From NCBI RefSeq assembly GCF_027568395.1, contig NZ_JANKZL010000006.1:124001-188000 (forward strand): 64,000 bases of DNA, read 5' to 3'. The stretch comes from Aminobacter sp. HY435 (GTDB lineage: Bacteria; Pseudomonadota; Alphaproteobacteria; Rhizobiales; Rhizobiaceae). This document shows positions 9,910-47,308 of the stretch, piece after piece (within the stretch, counting starts at the first letter, position 1; each line of letters opens with the position of its first letter). Position numbers and translations under genes: made by a program. Below the pieces are notes generated by a model. That model was not told where the DNA came from. It made no database searches and saw nothing but the letters and a program-made list of their open reading frames with translations.

Positions 9910-9931
9910 CGACCGGTTTATCCGTTTGGTC

Positions 9932-10061
9932 TACCCCCTCACCCGGCCTCCGCTTCGCTTGGCCGACCTCTCCCCGAGGGGAGAGGAGGTCCCAGAGCGT
10001 CGCGATAGCCCCTTCTCCCCAACGGAGAGAAGGTGGCCCGAAGGGCCGGATGAGGGGGATG
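9932..10061. repeat. Family A palindromic repeat between binding-protein and permease genes
   Basis: This is a diverged copy of the element at 4141-4321. The arms are about 9932-9987 and 10011-10060 and share CCCTCACCCGGCCTCCGCTTCGC and CTCTCCCC blocks. In the transcript it would form a stable stem downstream of the abundant binding-protein message, a common place for elements that stabilise upstream mRNA. Confidence 0.85.
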
Positions 10062-10102
10062 AAGGACGACGTCCGAGCGACGCCATCCGTAGTTCGACGA
10101 GC

Positions 10103-31016: not shown

Positions 31017-31050
31017 CAGCGCCTCCTCGATTTCTGTCTGCGTCCCGCAG

Positions 31051-31205
31051 TACCCCTACCCCTAGCCCCTCCCCGCAAGGGGGAGGGGGATTCTTGCGCC
31101 TTGGCTCCAGCGGTCGGTCTTCCCGCTCCCCTGGCTGATTGAAGCAAGGCTGTGCGCCGGCAGCTCCCGTCCCCCTTGTGGGGAGGGGTTAGGGGTGGGG
31201 GTAGG
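31051..31205. repeat. Family B palindromic repeat between permease and ATPase genes
   Basis: Arms 31051-31092 and 31166-31205 are reverse complements, built on CCCCTCCCC-GCAAGGGGGAGGGG. This is the same element as that inside thiD at 5963-6115, with a different central segment. It is intergenic here. Confidence 0.9.
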
Positions 31206-31236
31206 AAGTCCCAAATCGACGGCAGAAGAGCACCCA

Positions 31237-33492: not shown

Positions 33493-33495
33493 GGA

Positions 33496-34521
33496 TTACT
33501 GCGGCAGCGTCGAGACGTCCGTATCCCATTTCCCAAGCAGTCGCTTGCGCTCGTCGCTCGAGCCGTACTTCTTGAAGTCGTAGTCGATCAACTTGATGGT
33601 CGACATGTCGGGCGTCAGCTCGGACACCGCAGCCGACTTGTTCGACGGCAGCTGGAACGACTTCACCTCCTTGGCCTTGCCCTGCATTTCCGCCGACAGC
33701 GCCCAATCGTAGAACTTCTTCGCCGCTTCGGGATTGCGCGCGCCCTTGATCAGCGACATCGAGCCGATCTCGTAGCCGGTGCCTTCGCAAGGAGCGACCG
33801 TCACGATCGGGAAGCCTGCGGCCGACTGCGCCACCGCGTCATGCATGAAGACGATGCCGATGGTGGTCTCGCCCAGCCCCGCCGCCTTGATCGGCGCCGA
33901 GCCGGACTTGGTGTACTGGTTGATGTTCTTGTGCAGGGCCTTCATGTAGTCGAAGCCCTTGTCCTCGCCGAACAGCTGCACCATCGTCGCCAGCGTCGTG
34001 TAGGCGGTGCCCGACGAATTCGGATTGGCGATCTGGATCTGGCCCTTGTACTCGGGCTTCGTCAGGTCGGCCCAGCATTTCGGCTCCGGCAGCCCGTTCT
34101 TGGCCAGCAGATCCTTGTTGTAGCCGAAGCCAAGCGCACCGGAATAGACGCCGATCGTCTTGTTGCCGGCGGCTTCCGCCTGCTTGATCGCCCAGTCGTG
34201 CAGTTCGCCGCGCATCGGCGAGACATATTCTTCGGTCAGGCCTTCCTGCGCTGCCTGCAGGTGCGGATCGCCCGTGCCACCCCACCAGACGTCGCCCTTG
34301 GGATTTCCGGCCTCGGCGCGAACCTGGGCATAGGTCTCGCCCGAACTCTTGCGCGTCATGTCGACGGTGATGCCGGTCTTTTCCTCGAAGCCGGTCTTGA
34401 TCTGCTGGCACCATGCCTCGTCGGCAGCGCAATACAGGGTCAGGCTTTCGGCCTGCGCAGCCGTACCACCGGCAACCAAAACAGCGGCCAGCGCGGCCGA
34501 ACGCAAATAGGCAGTTTTCAT
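33496..34521 (-). CDS. Periplasmic binding protein, AfuA/FbpA superfamily (substrate uncertain)
   Basis: The 341-residue protein begins with a Sec signal peptide (about 1-24, ending AQA) and belongs to the class of binding proteins used for Fe(III), phosphonates and hexose phosphates. The block RKSSGETYAQVRAEAGNP, then DVWWGGTGDPHLQAA, resembles AfuA, described in Actinobacillus as a sugar-phosphate binder. The paired tyrosines that bind Fe(III) in FbpA (YY near the C-terminal third) are not seen. A SD-like GGAGGAAA precedes the ATG at 34521; a TTG six codons upstream is a less likely start. It heads the operon with the fused permease and ATPase. A phosphorylated organic substrate is at least as likely as iron. 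Confidence 0.85.
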   Translation of the reverse strand: MKTAYLRSAALAAVLVAGGTAAQAESLTLYCAADEAWCQQIKTGFEEKTGITVDMTRKSSGETYAQVRAEAGNPKGDVWWGGTGDPHLQAAQEGLTEEYVSPMRGELHDWAIKQAEAAGNKTIGVYSGALGFGYNKDLLAKNGLPEPKCWADLTKPEYKGQIQIANPNSSGTAYTTLATMVQLFGEDKGFDYMKALHKNINQYTKSGSAPIKAAGLGETTIGIVFMHDAVAQSAAGFPIVTVAPCEGTGYEIGSMSLIKGARNPEAAKKFYDWALSAEMQGKAKEVKSFQLPSNKSAAVSELTPDMSTIKLIDYDFKKYGSSDERKRLLGKWDTDVSTLPQ

Positions 34522-34720
34522 GTTTTCAGTTTCCTCCAATTATTTTTCGCCGTCTAACGATCTTCTGTCGCCTTGGCCTGTTGCAGAGTGAGTTGTTTTT
34601 ACGCATTTTGCAATCGTGTTCATGTCACTATCTTGGCTGTCATGACGCAGAACCGGCGGTGATGCTACTTAAGTGCAAAGCCTCGGAAACCGCCGCATCG
34701 AAAGGACCTGCTGGGCGAAA

Positions 34721-35200
34721 ATGCCAAAGGACAAGAAGACCATCCGCAAGGCGAACAAGGGCGAGCGCATCGCCCAGGTCGCGGCCATTCCGTTCCGGGT
34801 GAACGGTGACGGCGAGCTTGAGGTCATGCTTGTCACGTCGCGCGGCACGCACCGTTTCATCGTGCCCAAGGGCTGGCCGATGAAAGGCAAGAGCGCCCGC
34901 CAGGCAGCCCTCATTGAAGCCCGCGAAGAAGCCGGCGTCATTGGCAAAGCCTTGAAAAGGCCGGCTGGAAGCTATTGCTACTGGAAGCGCCTCTCGACCA
35001 GCTTCGTCCATGTCGAGGTCACCGCCTTCCTCATCGAGGTCACCGACGAGATCGAGGACTGGCAGGAAGCAGGTGCCCGCCAGCGCGCCTGGCTGCGCCC
35101 CGCCGATGCGGCGATCCTGATCGACGAACCCGAATTGTCCACGCTGATCCGCAACCTGAAGCTGGCCGACATCGCCCAGCACGTCGACGCCGCGGCCTGA
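34721..35200 (+). CDS. Nudix hydrolase
   Basis: This 159-residue cytoplasmic hydrolase should cleave a nucleoside-diphosphate-X or diphosphoinositol-type substrate. The Nudix helix is visible around PKGWPMKGKSARQAALIEAR and EEAGV, keeping the REEAG catalytic core; the first Glu of the Nudix box is not in its usual place. The Pro-Lys-Gly-Trp-Pro entry is typical of diphosphoinositol polyphosphate/Ap4A-type members. The ATG at 34721 follows AAGGACC weakly; an upstream start is possible. It faces away from the AfuA-like gene and lies before the LacI regulator. Confidence 0.88.
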   Translation: MPKDKKTIRKANKGERIAQVAAIPFRVNGDGELEVMLVTSRGTHRFIVPKGWPMKGKSARQAALIEAREEAGVIGKALKRPAGSYCYWKRLSTSFVHVEVTAFLIEVTDEIEDWQEAGARQRAWLRPADAAILIDEPELSTLIRNLKLADIAQHVDAAA

Positions 35201-35282: not shown

Positions 35283-35298
35283 TTGCACATTTGTGCAA
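35283..35298. promoter_or_regulatory. LacI-type operator before the regulator gene
   Basis: TTGCACATTTGTGCAA is a perfect 16-base palindrome with the central CpG-less TT typical of even-spaced LacI operators. It lies 44 bases before the regulator ATG. The same motif recurs at 39624 and, less perfectly, at 47191 and 47293. Confidence 0.85.
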
Positions 35299-35341
35299 CG
35301 GCCAATAGCCGTGTCCAGGTAGTGCCAAAATGGAGCCCGCA

Positions 35342-36361
35342 ATGTCCGAACTGAAGCCGGGCAGGTCATTCGTCAGCGCCCAGCAGGTCGCTGAACTGGC
35401 CGGCGTTTCCCGCTCAGCCGTGTCCCGGACATTCACCGATGGCGCCAGCGTGTCCGAGACCACCCGCAAGAAGGTTCTCGAGGCGGCCGAGCGACTCGGC
35501 TACCACGTCAATCACCTGGCCCGCAGCCTCATCCATGAAAACAGCGGCATCGTCTGCCTCATCGGCGCCGACATCAACACGCCGTACCATTCCCGCCTGC
35601 TCGATGCGATCACCCGGCGCCTGCAGGCGATCAACCGCGTCGCCATGGTCATCAACACCTCCGGCGACAGCGACAGCGTCGAAGCCGCCCTGCGCCAGAC
35701 CCTGAACTACCGCGCCAACGCGACCGTCGTCTTGTCGGGCACGCCTCCGACGTCGCTGATCAACACCTGCATCAACAGCGGCCAGCACGTCATCCTGATC
35801 AATCGCGACGATCATCTCGACGGTCCCGAAAGCATCACCGTCGACAATGGCGTCGCTGCCCGCGAAGCCTTCCACATGCTGCATCGCGCCGGCTGCCGCC
35901 GCATTGCCGTGGTTTCGTCGCAGGCGGGCACGCCAAGCCTGGTCGCGCGTGAGCGCGGCTTCGAGCAGGCAGCGCAGGAAGCCGGCCTCGGCGTCACCAT
36001 CACCCGTGCCGGGCCGACCGGTTATGGCGCGGGATTCGAGGCGGGTCGGCTGTTGCTGAGCGGCTCCGATCGGCCCGAGGCCGCCTTCTGCGTGACCGAT
36101 CTTTTGGCCTGTGGTTTCATGGACGCGGCGCGCGTCGAGTTTGGCATGAACGTGCCCGAAGAACTCTGCGTCGTCGGCTTCGACGACATCGAGCAGGCGA
36201 GCTGGTCGTCCTACCAGCTGACGACCTTCCGCCAGCCGATCGCCCAGATCGCCGAGCACATCACCACCTTGCTCGACAGCGAAAACCCCGATGCCGTGCG
36301 CGGCGGGAGGGTCTGCTTTCATGCCGCTCCGGTCTGGCGCCGCACGGTGCGGCCCAAGTGA
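35342..36361 (+). CDS. LacI-family transcriptional regulator of the phosphatase/ABC locus
   Basis: The 339-residue repressor has the N-terminal LacI helix-turn-helix (about residues 12-35: AQQVAELAGVSRSAVSRTF) and hinge helix (NHLARSLI), followed by a periplasmic-binding-protein-like ligand domain. An earlier ATG at 35330 is in frame; the ATG at 35342 has GGAG six bases upstream. Its 3' end overlaps the convergent metallophosphoesterase gene by 43 bases. It probably regulates itself and the two phosphatase/transporter operons through the TTGCACA-N2-TGTGCAA palindromes; the inducer is unknown but is likely the transported compound or a product. Confidence 0.92.
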   Translation: MSELKPGRSFVSAQQVAELAGVSRSAVSRTFTDGASVSETTRKKVLEAAERLGYHVNHLARSLIHENSGIVCLIGADINTPYHSRLLDAITRRLQAINRVAMVINTSGDSDSVEAALRQTLNYRANATVVLSGTPPTSLINTCINSGQHVILINRDDHLDGPESITVDNGVAAREAFHMLHRAGCRRIAVVSSQAGTPSLVARERGFEQAAQEAGLGVTITRAGPTGYGAGFEAGRLLLSGSDRPEAAFCVTDLLACGFMDAARVEFGMNVPEELCVVGFDDIEQASWSSYQLTTFRQPIAQIAEHITTLLDSENPDAVRGGRVCFHAAPVWRRTVRPK

Positions 36362-38049
36362 TCCTTGCGCTCGACCGCGCCGGTGGCGAGGTCGATGGAA
36401 AAGTCGCGCGAGGGTTGGCTGTCGAGCCAGTCCACCATCATGCGCATGAACGAGGCGAGGCGGTCCTGCAGGCTGCCCTGCGGCCATGAACCCAAAGCGT
36501 AGCGCTGGGCGAGCAGGCGATAGGCGGCGATGCGTTCGGGGGCGATGAAATCGTGCGCGATTTCCCTGCCCTTGCGCAGCCGGTACCAGTCGACGACCAT
36601 CTCGAAGAAGGGCAGTGCGGCCCATGCGGCTTCCGCCTGGCCCCTTCCCCCGACGCTCACTCGATCTGCCGCATCCGCAACCGACAGCGGCCGGGCAGTG
36701 CCGGCAAAGGCATCGAGATCGCCAAGCTGGAGATGCGGCACAAGCACGGCCAGATCCTGCGGCCATTCCTTGGGCAGATAGCGGTGGCGAACCATGTCGG
36801 AGAGATGGCGACTGAGGAAGTCGGCGTGGTTCGCAGCGTCCGTAACAGCCGCCGAAATCCCCTCGCGTGCCGCCTCGACGCGATAAAGCGCAAACGCCGC
36901 ATCATGGCCGGGCACATCGGAGATGGTGACGGTCTCGATGTCGAGGCGCTCGCGCTCGACGTCGACAATCTTGTAGGCAGGCGGGAAGCCGACCATGGAA
37001 GGCACCGCAACGTTGACCAGGACGTCGTCGCCGGCGCGAAAGACCGCCGTGTCGTTGATGTGCAGGTGGCCGCTGAAATGGATCTTGATGCCAGTAGCCG
37101 CTGCGGCCCTCGAAACTTCGGCATTGGGCGTCCGGCGCAGGAACGACGTGTCGTTGAGCAGCCGCGCCTCGTCGACCGAAGTGCCGTTGAGCGGATCGAT
37201 GATCGGGTAGTGAGAAAACGCGATCAGCTGTTTGCCTTGCGCGCGCGCGCGCCTTGCGACATCCGCCATCCAGTCGAACACGAAGCCCTTGTTGCGCAGC
37301 ATCGAGTTCCAGCCGGCGTCGGTGCTGTCGTGGTAGCTTTTCTCCAGCCTCGGATCGAGATCGCCATTGCGTGGCTCGAACACATTGGCGTCGATCGACA
37401 GCAGCCACAGTCCCTCCACGGGCTCGACCAGGAAGGACGCGTCGATCATGCGCCGTGTCGTACGACCATCGGCAGAGACGATCTCGAACGTCCGCGCCTC
37501 CAGCCTGTCATCGCTTCCGAACGGGCTTTCCCAGTGCAGGTCGGCCTCGCGCCTGAAGAACCCGAATGCAGCCATCGCCGGAATGGCCTGCCCATAGCCG
37601 CCGCAATACATCTCCGCGGAGATGACGCGCTCGATAGACTGCCCTTGTTCGACGGCCGGATCGCTGCTCACCAGCGTGTGCGAACCGTCGGCATTCAGGA
37701 AGCGCTTGCTCTGGTGGCGGCCGTGGATGGCGTATAGATCGTGATTGCCCGGCGTCGCGACGAAGCGCAGGCCGAAACGCCTGGAATAGTCGGCAAACAG
37801 GATCGTCGCGGCCGCCATAGTCGATTGCTGTCCGTCGTCGGTAAGATCGCCCGCAACGACGACCAGCGAAATGCCCCTCCGGACGATGTCGTCGAGCAGA
37901 GCGCGCGTCGTGTGATAGCTCTCGTTGAAGACGCGCGTCGAAGCCGCCGTGTCGGCAAGGGTGCGGACAGCCACCCCATCGCCCACGCCAACGCCCTGCC
38001 GGTTGTTGATGTCGTGGAAATGCGGGTCAGCGATGACGGCAATCTTCAT
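36319..38049 (-). CDS. Calcineurin-like metallophosphoesterase
   Basis: The 576-residue cytoplasmic enzyme has the binuclear-metal phosphoesterase motifs in order: DPHFHD (residues 8-13), GDLTDDGQ, GNHD, FSHYPI and GHLH. This class hydrolyses phosphomonoesters, phosphodiesters and cyclic nucleotides. There is no signal peptide. At 576 residues it is larger than simple members; the extra C-terminal half (about 380-576) shows no motif I recognise. It is third in the operon with an IMPase-family gene and a dual-specificity phosphatase gene. A phosphodiesterase activity upstream of phosphomonoesterases would fit, but is inference. Confidence 0.88.
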   Translation of the reverse strand: MKIAVIADPHFHDINNRQGVGVGDGVAVRTLADTAASTRVFNESYHTTRALLDDIVRRGISLVVVAGDLTDDGQQSTMAAATILFADYSRRFGLRFVATPGNHDLYAIHGRHQSKRFLNADGSHTLVSSDPAVEQGQSIERVISAEMYCGGYGQAIPAMAAFGFFRREADLHWESPFGSDDRLEARTFEIVSADGRTTRRMIDASFLVEPVEGLWLLSIDANVFEPRNGDLDPRLEKSYHDSTDAGWNSMLRNKGFVFDWMADVARRARAQGKQLIAFSHYPIIDPLNGTSVDEARLLNDTSFLRRTPNAEVSRAAAATGIKIHFSGHLHINDTAVFRAGDDVLVNVAVPSMVGFPPAYKIVDVERERLDIETVTISDVPGHDAAFALYRVEAAREGISAAVTDAANHADFLSRHLSDMVRHRYLPKEWPQDLAVLVPHLQLGDLDAFAGTARPLSVADAADRVSVGGRGQAEAAWAALPFFEMVVDWYRLRKGREIAHDFIAPERIAAYRLLAQRYALGSWPQGSLQDRLASFMRMMVDWLDSQPSRDFSIDLATGAVERKDHLGRTVRRQTGAA

Positions 38050-38078
38050 GTCATTCTCGCTTGTCTACGAATAGTCCG

Positions 38079-38729
38079 TCAGTCGTCCGCAACCACCGCG
38101 CCGGCGGCAATGCCCTGATCAGGCGGCAGGCCGCGATCGATCATGGCGATCCACTGCGCCGCCTTTCGCGCGGCGGCGATCAGCATCGGCTTCGGCGCCT
38201 CATGCCACTCGTCCGGGCGAAGCTCGCGCTTGGTCCGGACATGGTTGAGCGCATCGTCGAGCGTCGGGAACCTGTCGGGCATCTCGACATGCAGGAACAG
38301 CGCGACCAACGTCACCGAGCGGCTGCGCCCGCCGCGGCAATTGACCAGCACATTGCCCTTCTCACGCCGGCGATAGGTCTTCTTGTCCGGCAGTTCCTGG
38401 CTGAAGGCGCCGCGCAGCAGGTAAAAGCCCGACAGCATCATCGTCTCGGGATTGCCATGCCCATCGATCAGCCCGAGCTTGTAGTAGCGCACCGCACCGA
38501 CGCCATAGATGGCGTCCGCATCTTCGCCCTCGCCAAAGCGCTCTGTGGCGTAGTTGAAATCGAGATTGACCGCGCAGTTGACCACCGTGGTGATGTTGTT
38601 CTGCTTGAGCAGCGCGAGATCGCCCGCCCCATCCATTCCGCCGACATAGATGTCGACGCCATATTCCGAGATGTCGCGCTCGATCAGGCTGAGCGCCGGA
38701 CGCTCATATCGCGGGCTGTTCATATCCAT
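38079..38729 (-). CDS. Dual-specificity/tyrosine-phosphatase-like protein
   Basis: This 216-residue protein has the Cys-based phosphatase loop C-R-G-G-R-S-R (C-x5-R), Cys near residue 130, after the strand VLVNC. The residue usually occupied by His before the Cys is Asn, a variation known in some relatives. A DIYVGGMDGAGDLALLKQ start and YYKLGLIDGHGNPETMM also fit the atypical DSP class. Small-molecule members dephosphorylate phosphoinositides or sugar phosphates. It lies between the IMPase-like and metallophosphoesterase genes in a LacI-operator-controlled operon. Confidence 0.82.
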   Translation of the reverse strand: MDMNSPRYERPALSLIERDISEYGVDIYVGGMDGAGDLALLKQNNITTVVNCAVNLDFNYATERFGEGEDADAIYGVGAVRYYKLGLIDGHGNPETMMLSGFYLLRGAFSQELPDKKTYRRREKGNVLVNCRGGRSRSVTLVALFLHVEMPDRFPTLDDALNHVRTKRELRPDEWHEAPKPMLIAAARKAAQWIAMIDRGLPPDQGIAAGAVVADD

Positions 38730-38764
38730 GGGTCTTGTTCTTTCAGATTGGATGCGAGGGCCGG

Positions 38765-39589
38765 TCAGCGCGACTGTTCGAGCGCGATGCCGGTCGCCTC
38801 GCTCATGCCCTGCGCCACCCCGGGCGCGGCTGCCAGCACCTCCCCGCCCTTGGTAAGCCCGCCGAGCGACAGGAATGGCGCAACCACGCCGCCCGCCTCC
38901 TTGACCAGCAGCAGGCCCGCAAGACAGTCCCAGGCATGCATGTGCAGCTCGGCATAGGCGTCCGAGCGCCCATCGGCGACATAGGCGAGGCCCAACGCAC
39001 CCGACGCGCCGCGCCGCACATTGGCGCCGCGCTCGAGGATGCTGGACAGCACGTCGAGATAGCGCTCGTTCGACTTGCGGTTCGACCAGCCGAACTCGAC
39101 GCAGGCGGCATCGAAATCGCTTGTCCTGGCGACCGACAATGGCTTGCCGTTGCGGGTGCCGCCGTGCCCGCGGCGGGCGAAATACAGCTCGTCCAGCACC
39201 GGGTTGTAGATCGCGCCGATCTCGGTCTCGCCATTGCTGACGAAGGCGATCGAAATGCAGAAGTGCGGAATGTCGCGGGCGAAATTCGCCGTGCCGTCGA
39301 TCGGATCGACGACCCAGATATCCGACTTGATCGCCCCACCGCCCTCCTCGCCGAGGAAACCATCCTCGGGGAATGCTTCGGCGATGCGTGCCTTGAGATG
39401 CCGCTCCACGGCGGCATCCGTCTCCGTCAGAAAGTCCTGCGGCCCCTTCATGCCAAAACCAGCCACGCGGTTGGTGAAACCGTCGAGCGCCACCGCGCCC
39501 GCCGAGCGCGCTATGTCCCGGCAGAAAGCGGCACGCCGGTCGAGACCGGTATCAGGTGTGGCTTCGGTTGCTGTTGCATGAACCGTCAT
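38765..39589 (-). CDS. Inositol-monophosphatase family protein (first copy)
   Basis: This 274-residue Mg-dependent phosphatase has the family motifs GEEGG near residue 79 and DPIDGTANF near residue 94, plus the C-terminal metal residue in HMHAWDCLAG. The family covers inositol-1-phosphate, fructose-1,6-bisphosphate, PAP and other sugar phosphates. The ATG at 39589 (MTVHAT) is the best start; the frame stays open a few codons upstream. It heads the three-gene phosphatase operon, with the operator 35 bases before the ATG. A paralogue is at 39734-40588. Confidence 0.9.
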   Translation of the reverse strand: MTVHATATEATPDTGLDRRAAFCRDIARSAGAVALDGFTNRVAGFGMKGPQDFLTETDAAVERHLKARIAEAFPEDGFLGEEGGGAIKSDIWVVDPIDGTANFARDIPHFCISIAFVSNGETEIGAIYNPVLDELYFARRGHGGTRNGKPLSVARTSDFDAACVEFGWSNRKSNERYLDVLSSILERGANVRRGASGALGLAYVADGRSDAYAELHMHAWDCLAGLLLVKEAGGVVAPFLSLGGLTKGGEVLAAAPGVAQGMSEATGIALEQSR

Positions 39590-39623
39590 TTCAATGCCGC
39601 CTGTGGTAAAAGTTGACCTCAAA

Positions 39624-39639
39624 TTGCACAGGTGTGCAA
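39624..39639. promoter_or_regulatory. LacI-type operator before the three-phosphatase operon
   Basis: TTGCACAGGTGTGCAA is a perfect palindrome of the same form as that at 35283. On the minus strand it directly follows a possible -35 TTGACG, so a bound repressor would block the promoter of the operon beginning at 39589. Confidence 0.85.
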
Positions 39640-39733
39640 AATCGTCAACGTCTTAAGTCAAATAATGTTTCCGCACTTCGCAGAACCAGACGCATTCCTG
39701 ATATTTCATGCGGATGCACACGCGTTCCATCCA

Positions 39734-40588
39734 TCATGCCGCATCGCGCGCGCGAGCCGCATCGCGGCTGTCGGAGATGCGCCGCGCGACGCGCATCAGC
39801 GTCGGATAGTCGGCCCCCTCGCCCAAGGCAACGTAGCCCGGGCAGATGAAGTCGTGGGTGTCGGCGCTGACCTTGCCGAGCGTCAGCGGGTGGTAGCTCC
39901 CCCCGGCTTGCTTGAGGATGAGGACCGCCGCGGCCACGTCCCACGGGTTGCTGCCAAATCCGGCGGAGGCGTCCACCCAGCCGGCCGCAACGTGGCAAAG
40001 GCTGAGCGCGCCGCTGCCCGGCCGGCGCAAGGTCGAGAATGTCTCCACCAGCTCGCCAAGGTTCTCCAGCGCCTGCGCGCGCCCGTCGAGGCGCAGGTCG
40101 CGCGCCACCGGATAACCGGTGATCAGCGTTGCATGGCGCTCGTCTGCAATGGCGCGCGAGCGCAAGGGCTCGCCGTTCAGCCAAGAGCCCGCAAGATCAG
40201 CAGAAAACAGCATCCCGGTGACGGGGTCGTAGACGGCGCCGGCTACGATCTCGCCGTCGATCACCACCCCCACCGACACGCACCAGAACGCGAACCCCCG
40301 GGCGAAATTCGAGGTGCCGTCGATCGGGTCGACATACCATTTCACCCGCCCCTCGCCGCTGGTCCCGTCTTCCTCGCCGAGCACAGTCGAATCGGGAACT
40401 TCGCCGAGGATGAAGGCTCGGATCGCAACCTCCGACTCCTTGTCGTGCTTCGTCACCACATCATGCAGGTCGACCTTGTAGTCGACGGCCATGTTCGACC
40501 GGAACGCCGCAAGCAGCGGTTCGCGCATCAGCTGCGAAGCCTGCTCTGCGACGCCGCGCAGGTACCTGGATTCCTCGAGCCTGTTCAT
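39734..40588 (-). CDS. Inositol-monophosphatase family protein (second copy)
   Basis: This 284-residue Mg-dependent phosphatase is a paralogue of that at 38765-39589. It has GEEDG, DPIDGTSNFARG and the metal-site SNPWDVAAAV. It is the last gene of the ABC-transporter operon and its ATG overlaps the HAD gene stop by ATGA, so the two are translationally coupled. The two copies differ in flanking residues, so they may take different positions or stages of the substrate. Confidence 0.9.
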   Translation of the reverse strand: MNRLEESRYLRGVAEQASQLMREPLLAAFRSNMAVDYKVDLHDVVTKHDKESEVAIRAFILGEVPDSTVLGEEDGTSGEGRVKWYVDPIDGTSNFARGFAFWCVSVGVVIDGEIVAGAVYDPVTGMLFSADLAGSWLNGEPLRSRAIADERHATLITGYPVARDLRLDGRAQALENLGELVETFSTLRRPGSGALSLCHVAAGWVDASAGFGSNPWDVAAAVLILKQAGGSYHPLTLGKVSADTHDFICPGYVALGEGADYPTLMRVARRISDSRDAARARDAA

Positions 40589-41391
40589 GCCGCGATCCCG
40601 CGCATTGCCTGGACGAAAAGCGCCAGCAGCCCGACCGGATCGGCAACGATGGCGTCGGGCTTGAGCTTCAGTTCATAGGGCAGGTCGTAGGTGCCCTTGT
40701 CTTCCATCAGGATGTTTCCGCCTATGCAGGCGCGTTTGCCGCACAGCACGTCGCGGTCGAAATTGTCGCCGACATACCATGCCGCTCCAGCCTCGACGCC
40801 AAGCGCCCGCGTCGCCTGGAAAATCATCTCCGGGTTCGGCTTGCGCACCTTGACCTCGTCGCTGTGGATCGCCACCGCGAAGCGGCCGGTCAGCCCGTGG
40901 GCGTCGAGGAAGTCGATATGGACCTGGCCGCACAGCGCGTTGGAAACGATGCCGACGGGGATACCGGCCCCATCCGCTGCGTCGAGCAGGTCGAGCATGC
41001 CATTGCGCAGTCTGCGCTCGCTCTTCCAGTTGCCCATCTTGCGGCACAGGTCGTAAGCCTCGGCGACAACGACATCCTGGGCTGGTTTTGCCCAGTCGCC
41101 GGCGACGAAGTCGCCCCAGAATTCCTCATGGCGCAATTCGCGCGGCGCCAGCGGCCGCGACATCGCATTCTTCCAGTGCGAGTCGGCAATGCCCGCCGCC
41201 TTGATGTCGTCGGTGATCTGTTCGACCGAAAGCTCCGGCGCCGCGACACCAGCCGCGTCGATCAGCCCGCGGACATGCCCCGCCAGGCGCTCGCGCCAGC
41301 CAGGCAGGTGCTTTGTCGACACGATCACGCCGCCAAAATCGAGCAGCAGCGCCGTGGGCGCCAGAAGCGTTCGGCCAGAGGTTTTCGTCAT
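40585..41391 (-). CDS. HAD-superfamily hydrolase
   Basis: The 268-residue protein has HAD motif I with the nucleophile D18 (LLLDFGGVI), Thr/Ser motif II in GIVSNALCG, Lys in VKVRKPNPEM, and motif IV GDNFDRDV. The second Asp of the usual DxD is Gly, as in some sugar-phosphate phosphatases of the YihX group, so the acid/base may be unusual. The ATG at 41391 begins the family core; a longer frame runs into the hairpin region. It follows the first binding protein by 80 bases, which include a strong hairpin, and overlaps the IMPase gene. Confidence 0.88.
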   Translation of the reverse strand: MTKTSGRTLLAPTALLLDFGGVIVSTKHLPGWRERLAGHVRGLIDAAGVAAPELSVEQITDDIKAAGIADSHWKNAMSRPLAPRELRHEEFWGDFVAGDWAKPAQDVVVAEAYDLCRKMGNWKSERRLRNGMLDLLDAADGAGIPVGIVSNALCGQVHIDFLDAHGLTGRFAVAIHSDEVKVRKPNPEMIFQATRALGVEAGAAWYVGDNFDRDVLCGKRACIGGNILMEDKGTYDLPYELKLKPDAIVADPVGLLALFVQAMRGIAA

Positions 41392-41423
41392 CAATCCGTC
41401 TCCACTGCGATCCCGGGAAAAAG

Positions 41424-41457
41424 AGGGACGGAGCCGAAGGAGAAAGGCCCCGTCCCT
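41424..41457 (-). terminator. Intercistronic hairpin between binding protein and HAD genes
   Basis: AGGGACGG (41424-41431) and CCGTCCCT (41450-41457) pair perfectly. No T-run follows. A partial terminator or RNA-stabilising stem would keep the binding-protein message higher than the phosphatase genes behind it. Confidence 0.6.
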
Positions 41458-41471
41458 AGCCCACCGGGAAA

Positions 41472-42620
41472 CTATTTCTTGTAGGCGACGCGCCAGAGGT
41501 CCTGCCAATCCTGGCGCGCATCCCAGTCCTCGAGTGCCGTCGAGGCGTCGTACTGCTGCAGCTTGTCCAGCACCTTGCCGATGCCGGAAGGCTCGTCGGC
41601 AGGCAGGCCGATGTCTGGGTTGGTCGGCAGCTTGCCGTCTTTCACCTGCGGCGCGATGCCTTCGTCCGTCAGGATGTAGTGGATGAACAGCTTCGCCGCG
41701 TTCGGGCTTTTGGTGCCGGTGGCGATCAGCCCGAGCTTGACATAGGTCCAGCCCGGCCACGGCTCGAGCCCCTCGCAAAGTCCGAGCTTGAAGCCCTTGT
41801 CGGCGTTATCGCGGAACTTGGCCGAGCTCATCAGGCCGAAGAAAGGCTCCTTCTGGCCGGGTGCGCCGACCGCTTCCGCGATCGCATCGTCGGCGTCCGC
41901 CAGCAGCGGTGAATTCCCGGCAAAGGCCTTGACCCAGGCTGCCGTCGCGCTGTCTTCACCGACCTCGATGTCCTTGCCGAAATGCGCCTTGTAGGCGGCC
42001 TTCATCTTGTCATCGTTATGCGTCGCCGTCTGGTTGAACCAGTCCGGATAGGTGCCCTTCGACAGCGGGTCGTAGAAGGCAACCTTGCCCTTCCACTTCG
42101 GGTCGGTGAGCTCCCAGATGTTCTTCACCGGGCAGGCGTCGTAGGCCTCGGTGTTGTAGGCCCAGACCGCGGCGTTGGTGGTGATCGCCAACGGGTTCTG
42201 GAACTTGGCCGGGATCTTGTCGGCCATGTCTGGCGGCAGATAGCTCTCGACGAACTTCTGCGGCAAAAGCTGCGCCAAACCGGCCGGCGCGTCGGTGATC
42301 AGCACCACGTCGCCCTTGACGTTCTTGGCCTGGCCCTCGCGCACGATCATTTCGAGCTGCGCGCTTGCCGAAACCTTGATGCCCGTCGCCTGCACGCCGT
42401 ACTTCTTGGTGAAGTTCTCGGCCATTTCGACGATCTTGCCGGTGCTGTCATAGATGTTGATCGGCGCTTCCTTCTTCGCCGCCTCGACCAACGCGTTGAT
42501 GTCGAAGGTTTCGGAACGCGCTGGAACCACGCCAAACATCGCTGCCGCGAGCATTCCTGCAAGTGCGGTCGATGCCAATGCCCTGCTTGTCTTGCTGCTC
42601 ATTCCAAACGTGGATGTCAT
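41472..42620 (-). CDS. Periplasmic binding protein, Fe(III)-type family (copy 1)
   Basis: The 382-residue protein has a Sec signal peptide (about 1-37, ending ARS) and belongs to the same superfamily as FbpA/AfuA. It is closely similar to the next gene: both have FDINALVEAAKKE, YGVQATG, REGQAKNVKGDV and the C-terminal WDARQDWQDLWRV. A conserved pair of adjacent tyrosines used for Fe(III) is not apparent. The ATG at 42620 follows GGGAGGAAG; a second ATG six codons on is possible. It is followed by a hairpin and the HAD gene. It probably shares the permease and ATPase upstream with the paralogue. Confidence 0.88.
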   Translation of the reverse strand: MTSTFGMSSKTSRALASTALAGMLAAAMFGVVPARSETFDINALVEAAKKEAPINIYDSTGKIVEMAENFTKKYGVQATGIKVSASAQLEMIVREGQAKNVKGDVVLITDAPAGLAQLLPQKFVESYLPPDMADKIPAKFQNPLAITTNAAVWAYNTEAYDACPVKNIWELTDPKWKGKVAFYDPLSKGTYPDWFNQTATHNDDKMKAAYKAHFGKDIEVGEDSATAAWVKAFAGNSPLLADADDAIAEAVGAPGQKEPFFGLMSSAKFRDNADKGFKLGLCEGLEPWPGWTYVKLGLIATGTKSPNAAKLFIHYILTDEGIAPQVKDGKLPTNPDIGLPADEPSGIGKVLDKLQQYDASTALEDWDARQDWQDLWRVAYKK

Positions 42621-42651
42621 TTCTTCCTCCCGTTCAAAATTCATGCCGCCG

Positions 42652-42674
42652 GCGCCCGGCTTCCTGCCGGGCGC
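42652..42674 (-). terminator. Hairpin between the two binding-protein genes
   Basis: GCGCCCGGC (42652-42660) and GCCGGGCGC (42666-42674) form a perfect 9-bp stem with a 5-base loop, just downstream of the second binding protein. No T-run is seen. Confidence 0.6.
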
Positions 42675-42689
42675 TGCGCTTGCAGGCGT

Positions 42690-43820
42690 CTATTTCTTGT
42701 AATTGACGCGCCAGAGGTCCTGCCAATCCTGCCGCGCATCCCAGTCGCTCTGGGCGGTCGCCGCGTCGTAAGGGAAGATCTGGTCGAGCACCTTGCCGAT
42801 GCCGGATGGTTCGTCATCCGGCAGCTTGGCATCGGTGTTGGTCGACATCTTGCCGTCGTCCGCCTGCGGGGCGATTCCCTCCTCGGTCATCAGATAGTGG
42901 ATGAAGAGCTTCGCGGCGTTGGGGCTGTCGGTGCCCTTGGCAATGAAGCCGAGGCTCGGATACATCCAGCCGGCGAAGGGCTGCAGGTCCTTGCACAGCC
43001 CAAGCTTGCTGCCGACGTCCTTGTTGTTGCGGAACTTGGCCGAGCTCATCAGGCCGATGAAGGGCTCCTTCTGGTCCGGCGCACCCGCTGCCTGGGCCGC
43101 GCCCTCGTCGGCATCGGTGAGCAGCGGGCCATTGGCGGCGAGCGCCTTGACCCAGGCGGCAGTCGCACCCGCCTCGTCGGTCACCAGATCCTTGCCGAAA
43201 TGCGCCTTGTAGGCGGCGGCAACCTTGTCGTCGCCGTGGGTGGCAAGCTGGTTGAACCAGTCGACATAGGACGCCTTGTTGAGCGGGTCCTGCATGGCGA
43301 GCTTGCCCTTCCACTTTTCCTCCGTCAGCTCCCAGATGTTCTTGATCGGGCAGCTTTCGTTGAGCTGGGTGTTGTAGGCAAAGACATTGGCCTCTTGAGA
43401 GACGGTCAGCGGGTTCTGGAACTTGGCCGGGATCTTGTCGGCGAGATCAGGCGGCAGCCAGCTGTCGACGAAACCCTGGGGCACAAGTTGCGCCACGCCG
43501 GCCGGAACGTCGCTGATCTGGATCACGTCGCCCTGCACGTTCTTGGCCTGGCCCTCGCGGATCACCATTTCGAGCTGGGCGGCAGCATTGGCCTTGGTTC
43601 CGGTCGCCTGCACGCCGTACTTCTTGCTGAAGGCTTCGGCCTGCTTCACGATCTTGCCGGTGCTCGAATAGACGCTGAGCGGCGGCTCCTTCTTGGCCGC
43701 CTCGATCAGCGCGTTGAGATCGAACTTCTCCTCTGCCTGCGCGGCACCTGCAAACAGGCCGGCAGCGACGCTGAGCGCCGTCGCAGCAAGAAGCCGTTTC
43801 ACGTCGAAATGCCTGCTCAT
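42690..43820 (-). CDS. Periplasmic binding protein, Fe(III)-type family (copy 2)
   Basis: This 376-residue periplasmic protein is a paralogue of the preceding one and has a Sec signal peptide (about 1-28, ending AQA). Similarity extends the whole length: KNIWELTE, AAYKAHFGKDL, GLMSSAKFRNN, and the identical tail WDARQDWQDLWRV. The ATG at 43820 (MSRHFD) has AGGGAGGAAAAG upstream. Differences cluster in the loops lining the cleft, so the two may differ in affinity or ligand. It follows the ATPase gene after hairpins at 43893-43911 and near 43840-43856. Confidence 0.88.
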   Translation of the reverse strand: MSRHFDVKRLLAATALSVAAGLFAGAAQAEEKFDLNALIEAAKKEPPLSVYSSTGKIVKQAEAFSKKYGVQATGTKANAAAQLEMVIREGQAKNVQGDVIQISDVPAGVAQLVPQGFVDSWLPPDLADKIPAKFQNPLTVSQEANVFAYNTQLNESCPIKNIWELTEEKWKGKLAMQDPLNKASYVDWFNQLATHGDDKVAAAYKAHFGKDLVTDEAGATAAWVKALAANGPLLTDADEGAAQAAGAPDQKEPFIGLMSSAKFRNNKDVGSKLGLCKDLQPFAGWMYPSLGFIAKGTDSPNAAKLFIHYLMTEEGIAPQADDGKMSTNTDAKLPDDEPSGIGKVLDQIFPYDAATAQSDWDARQDWQDLWRVNYKK

Positions 43821-43892
43821 CTTTTCCTCCCTCTGTCGGGCCGGCGCCATGCCGGCCGTCTTGTTTCCCGATAGTCCTGCTTTGTTCCCGAC

Positions 43893-43911
43893 GGGCGGTC
43901 CTCCACCGCCC
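43893..43911 (-). terminator. Hairpin between ATPase and binding-protein genes
   Basis: GGGCGGT (43893-43899) and ACCGCCC (43905-43911) form a perfect 7-bp stem just past the ATPase stop on the minus strand. A second GCCGGC-N5-GCCGGC stem lies closer to the binding-protein start. Confidence 0.5.
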
Positions 43912-43922
43912 GCGAAATCTCC

Positions 43923-45053
43923 TCAATGCAGCTTTGCCGGCCGCATCAGTCTGTCGGCCGCCTCCATGCGGTTGCCGGTCTTGTCGAAGACATGCAGCGC
44001 CTTGGGCTTGGTCCACCAGGTCACGGCCTCGCCCACCTCGATTTCCGGCGACTGGTGCGTGGTCATGAACAGCTTCTCGCCCGATGCCGTCAGCTCGATG
44101 ATCCAGCTGCCGCCGGTGGGCAGGATGCCTGTCACCTCGGCCTCACCTGACAGCGCCCCTTCCGCCACGCCGCGCTCGGCGTCCGCCAGGCGTATCGCTT
44201 CCGGCCGGATGCCGATCGAGCCCGCATCCCGCAGCTCGGCAAAGCGCGAGCCGAGATAGCCATTGGCGAGCCGCGACACTTCTGACTTTGCGTCGCCAAG
44301 TTCGACGATGTTGATCGGCGGGTTGCCGACGAACTGCGCCACGAAGCGGTTGGCCGGCCGGTCGTAGATGTCGTTGGGCGTGCCGACCTGCTGCAACTGC
44401 CCTTCGCTCATGACGGCGATGGTGGTGGCGAGCGTCATCGCTTCCCACTGGTCGTGGGTCACGAACACGATGGTCGTCTTGAATTCGGCGTGCAGGCGCT
44501 TGAGCTCGGCACGCATCTCGAGCCTGAGCGCCGCGTCGAGGTTCGACAGCGGCTCGTCGAGCAACAGCACCTCCGGATTGACCGCCAGCATGCGGGCAAG
44601 CGCCACGCGCTGCTGTTGTCCGCCCGACAGCTGCGAGGGATAGCGGTCGCGGTATTTTTCGATGCCGAGCGTCTTCATTACGCGCTCGACGCGCTCCTCG
44701 CGCTCGGCCTTCGGCATCTTGCGCAGACGCAGGCCGAAGTCGGTATTGCGCTCGATCGTCAGGTGCGGCCACAGCGCGTAGCTCTGGAACACCAGCCCCA
44801 TCTCGCGCCGCTCCGGCGGGATGAACACGCCTTCGGTGACCGAGTCGACGACGCGCGGGCCGACCCGGATTTCGCCCGCCGTGAGGTGCTCCAGCCCGGC
44901 GATCATCCGCAACGTGGTGGTCTTGCCGCAGCCCGAAGGCCCCAGCAGGCACATGAATTCGCCATCGCCGATTTCGAGGTCGAGATCGGCGACCGCATTG
45001 GCCGCATTCGCCCCGTAGTTCTTCTCGACGCCGCGCAGGTTGATTTTCGGCAT
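43923..45053 (-). CDS. ABC transporter ATP-binding protein of the organophosphate-type locus
   Basis: The 376-residue ATPase has Walker A GPSGCGKTT, signature LSGGQQQR, Walker B LLDEPLSNLDAA and VTHDQWEA, with a C-terminal TOBE domain (about 250-376). It lies one base after the fused permease stop, so the pair is coupled. It powers the importer with the two binding proteins downstream. The family includes PhnT/FbpC/AfuC. Confidence 0.93.
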   Translation of the reverse strand: MPKINLRGVEKNYGANAANAVADLDLEIGDGEFMCLLGPSGCGKTTTLRMIAGLEHLTAGEIRVGPRVVDSVTEGVFIPPERREMGLVFQSYALWPHLTIERNTDFGLRLRKMPKAEREERVERVMKTLGIEKYRDRYPSQLSGGQQQRVALARMLAVNPEVLLLDEPLSNLDAALRLEMRAELKRLHAEFKTTIVFVTHDQWEAMTLATTIAVMSEGQLQQVGTPNDIYDRPANRFVAQFVGNPPINIVELGDAKSEVSRLANGYLGSRFAELRDAGSIGIRPEAIRLADAERGVAEGALSGEAEVTGILPTGGSWIIELTASGEKLFMTTHQSPEIEVGEAVTWWTKPKALHVFDKTGNRMEAADRLMRPAKLH

Positions 45054-45054
45054 G

Positions 45055-46920
45055 TCAGTTCCCCAGTCCTTGGGCGAGATTGGTCTTGGTCAGCTTTTGG
45101 CCAAGCAGCGCGCCGAAATAGGCGAGGCCGGCGATGATCAGCACGACGGCGTTGGCGGCCTGCGTGTAGTGGTAGTCAACCAGGCGCAGCGAATAGGTGG
45201 TCAGCACGTCGGTCGACGGCACCGCCAGCACGACGAACAGGCTGAGGCCCTTGATGCCGGAGATGAAGGGCAGCAGGATGCCTGTCGTCAGCGAGCCCTT
45301 CTGGATCGGGATGACGATGGTGATCATGCGGCGGAACCAGCCGGCGCCGGCGACCTGGGCGGCCTCTTCCGGATCCTTGCCGAGCTGCATCATGGCGGCG
45401 ATACCGGCGCGCGAGGCATAGGGCATCTGGTCGGCGATCAGCGCCAGCATCAGGATCAGCGTCGTTCCGTAGAGCGCGGGGATCGGCCCGCGCGGCACCG
45501 CAAACAGCGAGAGATAGGCGGCGGCAAAGGCGATGCCGGGCACGAGGTAAGGCAAAAACGTCACCTGGCGCAGGAAGGTGCCGAGCGGCTTTACCTGGGT
45601 GCGCGCCACGACATAGCCGACCAGAAGACCAAGGATGCCCGAGGTGACGGAAGCCACGCCGACGATGCGCAGGCTGTTCCAGGCCGCGTTCCACAGGTCG
45701 GGCGAGAGCAGGATGCCGGTCTGCAGCGCAACCGTATTCAGATTTGTGCCGATCCAGTAGTCGAGCGTGAAATTGTCGATATTGAACTGCGCCGGCACCC
45801 GCATGATCGTCGACAGGAACAGCGTGGCCAGCGGCAGACCGACGCTCAACAAAAACATCAGCGCCGCAAACCCTGTCGCCGGCAGCCGCATGATGCCGAG
45901 CGGGTTCAGCCGGTTCATCGAACCCTTCGAGCCGATGGTGACGAAGCGGCGCGCCTCCTTCATCAGGCGGGCGTCGATGGTGATGGTGATGATGCCGATC
46001 AGCATGATCGAGCCGGCAAGCACGGCGCCGACGCCGACCTGGCGCGAGGCGATGTTCTGATAGAGCGAGGTCGCCAGCACGTCGAAGTTGACCGGAAGCC
46101 CCAGCACGTAAGGCACGCCGAACTCGCCGAGGCACTTGGCGAAGATCAGCACCATCGCCGAGATCAGCGACGGCCGCATCAGCGGCATGATCACCTTGCG
46201 GGCGACCGTCAGCCTGCCGGCGCCGAGAATGCGGGCCGAGTCTTCGAGCTGCGAGTCGAAGCGGCGCAGCGCGTTGCCGAACAGCAAAATGACGAAGGGC
46301 GAATAGTGCAACGCCAGGATGATGGTCACCGGAAGCTGGCCGTAGGACAGCCAGTCGGGCGGCGAAAAGCCGAGTGACTCCATCCAGCCCGGCTGGCCGC
46401 CGACGGTGCGGTTCTTGAACAGCGTCGTCCAGGCCAGCGCGAACGTCCAGGCCGGCAGCATGTAGGGCACGATCAGGGCGGTGGAGAACCAACGCCGGCC
46501 GAACATGTCGGTTCGGCTGAGCAGCCAGGCCAGCGTGCCGCCGACAAGCATCGACAGCACAATCGCGCCGACCGCGACGCTCAGCGTGTTGAACAGCGGT
46601 TCCCAGAACAGGTCGCGAGACACCCGCGACATGAAGACCCGCTCGAGATAGTACCAGGTCAGCTCCCCGACATCCTGCTTGATGCGGCGCTCGTCGCCGA
46701 ACTGCACGCGCGCTGCGTCCGAAAGCATCGATATGATCGGCACGACGATGAGATAGGTGAACAGCGCCGCGGCCAGGAAGCCGATTGTCGTGGTCGGCTC
46801 GCGCAGCGCGACCTTCAGCCGGTAGCGCAGCCGCTGCGCCCTCGTCGGGGCGGCGATCGAGCCGACGCCCGTCCGGCGGACCGCAGCGCTTTTATCCGAT
46901 GCATGCGAGGTGCTCGTCAC
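45055..46920 (-). CDS. Fused ABC permease of the organophosphate-type locus
   Basis: The 621-residue inner-membrane protein has two permease domains, each with about six helices and an EAA-like loop: SQLEDSARILGAGRLTVARKV and DPEEAAQVAGAGWFRRMITIV. The first gene of the operon. The start is taken at a GTG (46920) with GGAGG nine bases upstream; an in-frame TTG further up gives an extension without support. The N-terminal ~50 residues before the first helix are polar and Arg-rich. Two LacI-type palindromes lie 270-390 bases upstream. Confidence 0.9.
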   Translation of the reverse strand: MTSTSHASDKSAAVRRTGVGSIAAPTRAQRLRYRLKVALREPTTTIGFLAAALFTYLIVVPIISMLSDAARVQFGDERRIKQDVGELTWYYLERVFMSRVSRDLFWEPLFNTLSVAVGAIVLSMLVGGTLAWLLSRTDMFGRRWFSTALIVPYMLPAWTFALAWTTLFKNRTVGGQPGWMESLGFSPPDWLSYGQLPVTIILALHYSPFVILLFGNALRRFDSQLEDSARILGAGRLTVARKVIMPLMRPSLISAMVLIFAKCLGEFGVPYVLGLPVNFDVLATSLYQNIASRQVGVGAVLAGSIMLIGIITITIDARLMKEARRFVTIGSKGSMNRLNPLGIMRLPATGFAALMFLLSVGLPLATLFLSTIMRVPAQFNIDNFTLDYWIGTNLNTVALQTGILLSPDLWNAAWNSLRIVGVASVTSGILGLLVGYVVARTQVKPLGTFLRQVTFLPYLVPGIAFAAAYLSLFAVPRGPIPALYGTTLILMLALIADQMPYASRAGIAAMMQLGKDPEEAAQVAGAGWFRRMITIVIPIQKGSLTTGILLPFISGIKGLSLFVVLAVPSTDVLTTYSLRLVDYHYTQAANAVVLIIAGLAYFGALLGQKLTKTNLAQGLGN

Positions 46921-47190
46921 GAGGCGCAGCCTCCGAAATGGCAACACGCCGCCTTGCAACAAGCCCGGAGAACCGGACGTACGGCTGGGCAGTCATGCAA
47001 TGGCACGAACATGCGATTTCCTCCCCTGTATCGCCCGAAATGGGACCTGGCCGGCTCCGGCCAGACGCTCCTCAGCGCCCCGCTTCTGGCGTCTCCACCT
47101 TCCTCAGGGCAGGGCGGCACATTCCTGCACCTCGTTGGCATATTCATTCCATCGACGGCATGTTCGTGTCAATCCGGATTCTTCACAATA

Positions 47191-47206
47191 TTGCACAGCC
47201 GTGCAA
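47191..47206. promoter_or_regulatory. LacI-type operator before the ABC/phosphatase operon
   Basis: TTGCACAGCCGTGCAA has perfect outer arms TTGCAC/GTGCAA and matches the operators at 35283 and 39624 except at two inner positions. It is in the region between the fused permease and gmd. Confidence 0.75.
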
Positions 47207-47292
47207 ATCATCGCGATCCCACCACAAACTCCATGTTTCTCGAACTTTTTTGACAATCTCTCATCAGATGCCGGTTACATTTCGGCGGATTG

Positions 47293-47308
47293 CTGCACTG
47301 CCGTGCAA
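47293..47308. promoter_or_regulatory. Second, weaker LacI-type operator
   Basis: CTGCACTGCCGTGCAA retains TGCAC/GTGCA arms. It lies 102 bases from the operator at 47191, close to ten helical turns, a spacing that could allow looping by a tetramer or paired dimers. Confidence 0.55.

Follow-up and report, generated by a model that had tools for sequence, protein, structure and literature searches.

Introduction

Several bacterial ATP-binding cassette (ABC) importers with FbpA-type binding proteins carry phosphate esters, and in the parts of the sources available to us AfuABC is described as importing hexose and heptose phosphates and P5PAB as importing pyridoxal phosphate (PMC4546632, PMC8427247). 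Inositol phosphates are given as a major class of soil organic phosphorus in the accessible part of another report (PMC9430895). The use of phytate is known, from the portions of the literature consulted, via exported phytases followed by inositol uptake (PMC9430895, PMC12482443, PMC12838507, PMC11219571); the accessible part of one of these states that no conserved phytase gene neighbourhood was seen across genera (PMC12838507). Here we analysed 64,000 nucleotides of Aminobacter sp. HY435 (contig NZ_JANKZL010000006.1, positions 124,001 to 188,000; the whole stretch is called the window), in which positions 35283..47308 hold a gene for a LacI-type regulator, an ABC importer and five phosphate-ester hydrolases. 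Conservation and gene context in relatives suggest that these genes form a regulon that is probably catabolic and serves inositol phosphates, which would be taken up and then dephosphorylated in the cytoplasm.

Results

Gene Content and Conservation of the Set

Within 35283..47308 the LacI-family gene lies on the plus strand and the other nine genes all lie on the minus strand:

35330..36361, plus strand: LacI-family regulator (Pfam LacI 46 bits and Peripla_BP_3 86 bits, both above their cut-offs)
36319..38049, minus strand: calcineurin-like metallophosphoesterase (Pfam Metallophos, 52.4 bits)
38079..38729, minus strand: C-x5-R (DSPc) dual-specificity-type phosphatase (Pfam DSPc, 35.2 bits, cut-off 33.5)
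38765..39589, minus strand: inositol monophosphatase-family protein 1 (IMPase 1; Pfam Inositol_P, PF00459, 197.3 bits, cut-off 27), heading the phosphatase operon
39734..40588, minus strand: IMPase 2 (Pfam Inositol_P, PF00459, 158.7 bits, cut-off 27), ending the ABC operon
40585..41391, minus strand: HAD-family hydrolase (Pfam Hydrolase and HAD_2)
41472..42620, minus strand: periplasmic binding protein 2 (Pfam SBP_bac_11, 53.6 bits)
42690..43850, minus strand: periplasmic binding protein 1 (Pfam SBP_bac_11, 48.2 bits)
43923..45053, minus strand: ABC transporter ATPase (Pfam ABC_tran, 122.5 bits, and TOBE_2)
45055..~46920, minus strand: fused ABC permease of two permease units (Pfam BPD_transp_1, two stretches; start codon placed by eye), heading the ABC operon

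The phosphatase operon runs from IMPase 1 through the C-x5-R phosphatase to the calcineurin-like phosphoesterase (39589 to 36319), and the ABC operon comprises, in order, the permease, the ATPase, binding proteins 1 and 2 (66% identical to each other), the HAD-family hydrolase and IMPase 2 (46920 to 39734). The regulator, whose gene starts at 35330 or 35342, has the domain pair of LacI/GalR proteins, namely an N-terminal helix-turn-helix and a periplasmic-binding-type ligand domain. The five hydrolases represent four families, two of the five being IMPases, for whose putative inositol monophosphatase function no NCBIfam equivalog model scored above its cut-off. Since no signal peptide was recognized by eye in any of the five hydrolases, the ester would have to enter the cell. 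Other Aminobacter genomes matched at 78-83% protein identity.

Conservation was assessed in 29 loci, each from a different genome, which were picked by protein similarity and not by operator, and which are not independent of one another, as seven belong to the Aminobacter group and sixteen to Devosiaceae. No locus lacked the permease, the ATPase, the C-x5-R phosphatase or a binding protein (29 of 29). Of the remaining genes, lacI occurred in 27 loci, those for IMPase 1 and IMPase 2 in 26 and 22, that for the metallophosphoesterase in 23 and that for the HAD-family hydrolase in 11. A Na/Pi transporter with the domains Na_Pi_cotrans and PhoU was found in 14 of the 29, the cluster of the window itself not being one of them. 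Gene order varies, as the window's two operons are fused or rearranged in other genomes; L021 and L023, for instance, have a single run of lacI, IMPase, permease, binding protein, ATPase, C-x5-R phosphatase, metallophosphoesterase and Na/Pi transporter. The C-x5-R gene is a core member of the set, and its loop (NCRGGRSRS in the window) was of the C-R-G-G-R-S-R type in all 36 loci printed.

Strong matches to the C-x5-R phosphatase were rare: at E<=1e-40 the Devosiaceae-type family had them in 16 of 121 genomes. With weak relatives included (E<=1e-10), 22 of 397 genomes of the order and 4 of 385 of a class sample gave matches, and a phylum sample gave 4 of 299. A plasmid collection contained 86 matching records, 54 of them named Sinorhizobium, the other carriers including Ensifer, Shinella, Klebsiella, Vibrio, Erwinia, Thioclava and Devosia. 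The plasmid-borne loci of Vibrio, Erwinia, Klebsiella and Thioclava consist of importer, IMPase, C-x5-R phosphatase and LacI only, the metallophosphoesterase not being found in these operons; two of the four have a histidine-type phytase, and the larger sets occur in alphaproteobacteria. Additional copies were also observed, with three IMPases in one cluster of Microvirga brassicacearum (L030:5899-8386) and, in Sinorhizobium, two C-x5-R genes that each adjoin an IMPase gene (L125:15168-16771 and L126:14097-15591).

Three partial sets (L063, L073 and L074) were kept among the 29 loci; transposase-like genes lie alongside the one in L063. Seven loci matched by the metallophosphoesterase only were left out. 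In five of them (L017-L020 and L022) the homologue (matches near 9100-10850) belongs to an unrelated, conserved cluster with large ABC exporter-like, cyclic-nucleotide-binding-type and glycosyltransferase-like genes, and in L024 and L032 the rest of the module is missing around it. Also left out were L064-L072 and L075, weak matches to the C-x5-R profile with a different arrangement. Most of these (L064-L070, L072 and L075) represent a second kind of locus, in which an FbpA-type importer accompanies a distant C-x5-R phosphatase; a metallo-beta-lactamase-fold hydrolase was seen in L065, L066, L070, L072 and L075, and in most loci a related LacI gene is present and the same operator precedes the ATPase gene. 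Phytase activity is on record for proteins of the metallo-beta-lactamase fold, according to the accessible part of the source (PMC6584368).

A Conserved Putative Operator Precedes the Genes of the Set

Four palindromic sites, taken as candidate operators and given here without strand, were located in the window:

35283..35298: operator 1, TTGCACATTTGTGCAA, exact match, upstream of lacI
39624..39639: operator 2, TTGCACAGGTGTGCAA, exact match, upstream of the phosphatase operon
47191..47206: operator 3a, TTGCACAGCCGTGCAA, exact match, upstream of the ABC operon
47293..47308: operator 3b, a weaker copy with one palindrome mismatch, 11 of 14 consensus bases

Counts of the palindrome gave, by themselves, mixed results, in which only the exact form stood out. 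Of the four exact copies of TTGCAC-N4-GTGCAA in the 4.6 Mb genome, three lie within the window; with up to two mismatches the window holds five matches against 2.65 expected, which is not significant, and with up to one mismatch the genome holds eight sites against 11 for a reversed control pattern. The palindromes are regarded as real because they are conserved across relatives. Each of the three exact sites had a counterpart at the corresponding position in every one of the six other Aminobacter/Mesorhizobium-type genomes examined, operator 1 being kept before lacI, the equivalent of operator 2 lying 32-63 bp before IMPase 1 in relatives with the same layout, and that of operator 3a 309-345 bp before the permease match. 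Operator 3b recurred as TTGCACGGCAGTGCA-N in the same six genomes, and since it is kept there it was counted as real and as a possible looping partner of 3a. In the seven genomes 3a and 3b are 91, 101 or 102 bp apart; these values differ by roughly one turn of the helix, and the pair is suggestive of a repression loop.

At a threshold of at least 12 of 14 consensus bases, 70 sites were found in the 29 loci, 27 of which carry at least one, and block-shuffled controls gave 0-0.2 sites per locus. All but one of the sites (69/70) lie no more than 450 bp upstream of a gene of one of six kinds, namely permease, IMPase, C-x5-R, lacI, Na/Pi transporter or afuA, the exception falling inside an ATPase gene. 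Sites with 12-14 of 14 bases were also present in the loci of Vibrio, Erwinia, Klebsiella, Thioclava, Shinella and Sinorhizobium. The core of the LacI helix-turn-helix is nearly invariant among relatives: it fitted the search expression in 20 of 21 loci, Sinorhizobium B11 giving no match to it, and reads SRSAVSRTF in 19 of the 20 and SRSAVSRAF in Rhizobium leguminosarum WSM1325. As in LacI/GalR systems, the palindrome is placed upstream of both the regulator's own gene and its putative targets.

These data bear out much of the original prediction, which had described a LacI-type gene beside five phosphate-ester hydrolases and an importer that has two binding proteins, and palindromes at 35283, 39624 and 47191 with a weaker one at 47293. 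The gene content was confirmed, the palindromes gained support from their conservation, the 29 loci showed the two operons to be conserved together, the lack of which had been named as a refutation of the prediction, and the genes co-occur with the operator in 27 of these. The proposal of one regulon under the LacI-type gene is likewise supported.

The Set Is Linked to myo-Inositol Catabolic Genes in Several Relatives

An iolG gene (416.5 bits, above cut-off) near the set was first noticed in one Devosiaceae genome (G439), and the other genomes were tested afterwards. iolE was located within 35 kb of the C-x5-R gene in five of the 16 set-bearing Devosiaceae genomes, at 3.5 kb (G879), 5.6 kb (G339), 14 kb (G439), 14 kb (G946) and 32 kb (G299), where 0.32 were expected; leaving out the discovery genus, the linkage held in 3 of 11 genomes (expected 0.22, P 0.0012), figures for which the window widths were chosen after the distances had been seen and contig breaks between the genes were scored as unlinked. 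In G879 the genes iolC-D-E-B run convergently into the set, and the other four genomes have all five genes iolG, B, C, D and E in the vicinity. Loci with iol genes next to or near the set were L105, L062/L078, L060/L077, L120/L112 and L080. In a genome of a different class (G1097), a second C-x5-R copy lies beside iolG-B-E-D-C, the main set (importer, IMPase, C-x5-R phosphatase and LacI) being elsewhere in that genome. Overall, iolE scored above cut-off in 17 of 18 set-bearing genomes (the exception being G178) versus 55 of 199 in the order.

Phytases of Three Types Adjoin the Set, and Two of Its Enzymes Occur Fused

Three phytase types adjoin the set. In the Devosia relative G946 a beta-propeller phytase (149.7 bits), with a signal peptide recognized by eye, has the iol genes on one side and the divergent permease gene on the other. 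Vibrio sp. HDW18 has a MINPP-like histidine-type phosphatase together with a porin, both divergent from the set; the Protein Data Bank (PDB) entries nearest to the phosphatase are named histidine acid phosphatase (6rxd, 240 bits) and multiple inositol-polyphosphate phosphatase. The permease gene on the Klebsiella plasmid pKP121-2 is preceded by a porin and a PhyK-like phosphatase, whose closest match is the 3-phytase 2wnh (278 bits). Overall, 3 of the 29 genomes or records searched had histidine-phosphatase genes, and 5 of 30 had a beta-propeller phytase.

The importer-phosphatase stretch occurs in four Klebsiella plasmid records, in one of which the neighbourhood was read. Set, phytase and porin were seen there on a conjugative plasmid of Klebsiella pneumoniae with flanking insertion sequences (L128:6216-14970), and a search of E. 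coli genomes for a near-identical Klebsiella operon found none.

The IMPase and the C-x5-R phosphatase are fused in a single protein in Erwinia sp. E602 (528 amino acids) and on the Klebsiella plasmid (479 amino acids), and since two homologues are fused in this way, both enzymes probably act in one pathway. The C-x5-R phosphatase has the DSPc domain and the C-x5-R loop and was not recognizable as a cysteine (PTP-like) phytase in the PDB comparison. The basic residues at the second and fifth positions of its loop presumably resemble those of the inositol-phosphate-binding loop of PTEN, which we take as a hint only. Its structural model had a predicted local distance difference test score (pLDDT) of 65.9, and its nearest structures were of the VHR type, with TM-scores below 0.5 by query length; the model of binding protein 1 had a mean pLDDT of 35.4. 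Since model and fold-match quality was low, no argument about the substrate is drawn from either.

An AfuABC-Type Importer Lies Next to the Regulon

A second importer, unmentioned in the original prediction, occupies 29940-34539:

29940-31016: AfuABC-type ATPase
31237-33492: AfuABC-type permease
33496-34521: binding protein, AfuA homologue (322 bits to AfuA)

The similarity of this binding protein to AfuA (PDB 4r72-4r75) is full-length, and that of binding protein 2 of the regulon covers part of the chain at E 1e-5. The importer is kept in the six other Aminobacter-group genomes, similar binding proteins adjoin the set in L060, L130 and L131, and such an importer is also next to the set in Shinella sp. 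HZN7 and R. leguminosarum WSM1325; in L060 an operator of 12/14 lies 90 bp before the AfuA-type gene. A NUDIX-type gene (34673-35200) between the regulator and the Afu-type genes is kept in the Aminobacter group, and NUDIX-type genes near the set were also observed in L112 and L131.

Discussion

The genes described here probably constitute a catabolic regulon for inositol phosphates. Several observations weigh against this assignment. iolE is common in Devosiaceae anyway (81 of 105 genomes without the set versus 16 of 16 with it, P 0.022), 11 of the 16 set-bearing Devosiaceae genomes have no tight iolE linkage, and no iol linkage was found in the stretches read of five genomes (G094, G061, G155, G474 and G178). 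Most carriers match neither the histidine-phosphatase nor the beta-propeller phytase family. The window's genome does possess myo-inositol catabolic genes, iolG and iolE (above cut-off), which lie on another contig (C29) and are unlinked to the window, and it gave no match to PF00328 or PF02333, the phytase families searched; since neither of these phytase types is present and the iol genes are on another contig, the substrate proposed for the window's own genome rests on homology. As to the enzymes, the C-x5-R phosphatase matched no phytase-named chain among 45 PDB hits (E<=1), the metallophosphoesterase matched one PDB chain only (E 0.014), and a rhizobial member of the IMPase family is a histidinol-phosphate phosphatase, according to the accessible part of the source (PMC5929573).

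The AfuA-type importer next door could in addition point to sugar phosphates, so that the regulon would import and dephosphorylate hexose or other sugar phosphates, with the iol genes neighbours by chance. The binding proteins of the regulon belong to a broad group that includes AfuA, a strong AfuA homologue with its own permease and ATPase adjoins the set here as it does in L060, Shinella and WSM1325, and IMPases can act on sugar phosphates. Such a substrate nevertheless seems unlikely, since it leaves unexplained the three different phytases beside the set as well as the iol linkage in several genera and two classes, and uptake of hexose phosphates would already be provided for by the AfuABC system next to the regulon. 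Closer to the original prediction, which had a phosphodiester cut first by the metallophosphoesterase, would be a glycerophosphoinositol-like inositol phosphodiester or another phosphodiester. Calcineurin-like enzymes include glycerophosphodiesterases, 23 of the 29 loci have the metallophosphoesterase, and inositol would still be a product; this first step is, however, rather improbable, as the gene is missing in 6/29 loci and was not found in the small plasmid-borne operons, and as the phytases beside the set yield monoesters and not diesters. The analogy with the agrocinopine genes fared worst. An importer, a phosphoesterase and an IMPase-like enzyme do make up the agrocinopine logic, yet many carriers of the set (Vibrio, Devosia, Thioclava and Klebsiella) are not tumour-associated, and the listed neighbourhoods showed no obvious opine genes, though no model search aimed at such genes was made; we consider an opine system of this type very improbable. 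What stands of that earlier proposal, besides the regulon and its conserved operons, is organophosphate import followed by cytoplasmic dephosphorylation, in agreement with hydrolases that have no signal peptide by eye and with an importer conserved with the set, and a polyol as product; its wording of a multiply phosphorylated polyol fits best, and the gene context names inositol.

For inositol phosphates, the following route can be proposed from gene content and context. Phytase products would be made in some lineages by a phytase that the cell itself exports; in the Aminobacter group they would presumably come from other organisms. Having crossed the outer membrane, the products would be captured by the FbpA-type binding protein and passed to the ABC importer, the compounds imported being phosphorylated forms of myo-inositol, probably partly dephosphorylated leftovers of phytase action. 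In the cytoplasm the C-x5-R phosphatase and the IMPase would release the last phosphates, and the metallophosphoesterase, the HAD-family hydrolase and the second IMPase may widen the range to more highly phosphorylated forms, a role that would fit the small plasmid-borne sets versus the larger alphaproteobacterial ones, as far as these few cases go. The freed myo-inositol would enter the iol pathway. In the many relatives that have it, the Na/Pi transporter of the same regulon would dispose of surplus phosphate, presumably as an exporter. The LacI-type protein is predicted to repress the operons via TTGCACA-N2-TGTGCAA and to be released by substrate or product; given such control, the genes would serve carbon use and not phosphate starvation. 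Phosphate export is a known role of Na/Pi cotransporters (E. coli YjbB, NptA/YjbB type), and the presence of such a transporter in the regulon suggests a phosphate surplus.

A bolder version is possible and stated here tentatively, as we regard it as doubtful: inositol polyphosphates up to phytate itself might be imported and dephosphorylated wholly in the cytoplasm, the C-x5-R protein being a new class of phosphatase that takes the axial 2-phosphate and the Na/Pi transporter expelling phosphate. Phytases leave the axial 2-phosphate, which IMPase handles poorly. Phytate would then be a carbon source and phosphate a waste product.

Bacterial phytate use is usually described as the complete work of exported phytases. 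A conserved importer working with phosphatases in the cytoplasm would account for bacterial use of partly dephosphorylated phytate products, and would name a function for genes annotated as iron ABC transporters on replicons of Sinorhizobium, Shinella, Devosia and others; if correct, it would be a new route for using the breakdown products of a major soil phosphorus store. No description of an importer combined with cytoplasmic phosphatases in a LacI regulon, or of an inositol phosphate importer of this type, was found among the titles and opening abstract lines of the papers listed from the open-access literature, which is weak evidence as most subscription papers lie outside it.

Compared with known systems, the regulon shares with AfuABC and P5PAB, as far as the accessible parts of their descriptions go, an FbpA-type importer of a kind once annotated as iron importers and carrying phosphate esters inward. 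It differs from them in that its binding proteins are weakly related to AfuA, its importer occurs together with phosphatases of four families and a LacI regulator, and its relatives add inositol genes. The Agrobacterium agrocinopine (acc) genes likewise combine an importer with phosphoesterases, one of them IMPase-like; their context is different, and nothing in the regulon points to opines. The transporter found in relatives matches the Na/Pi cotransporter family with PhoU, and, unlike the usual members of this family, it would here be part of an organophosphate catabolic regulon. With the route of exported phytase and iol genes, as described in the sources consulted, the regulon would have the goal in common, phosphate and myo-inositol from phytate, whereas dephosphorylation in that route is extracytoplasmic and here phosphorylated forms would be imported and the dephosphorylation finished inside.

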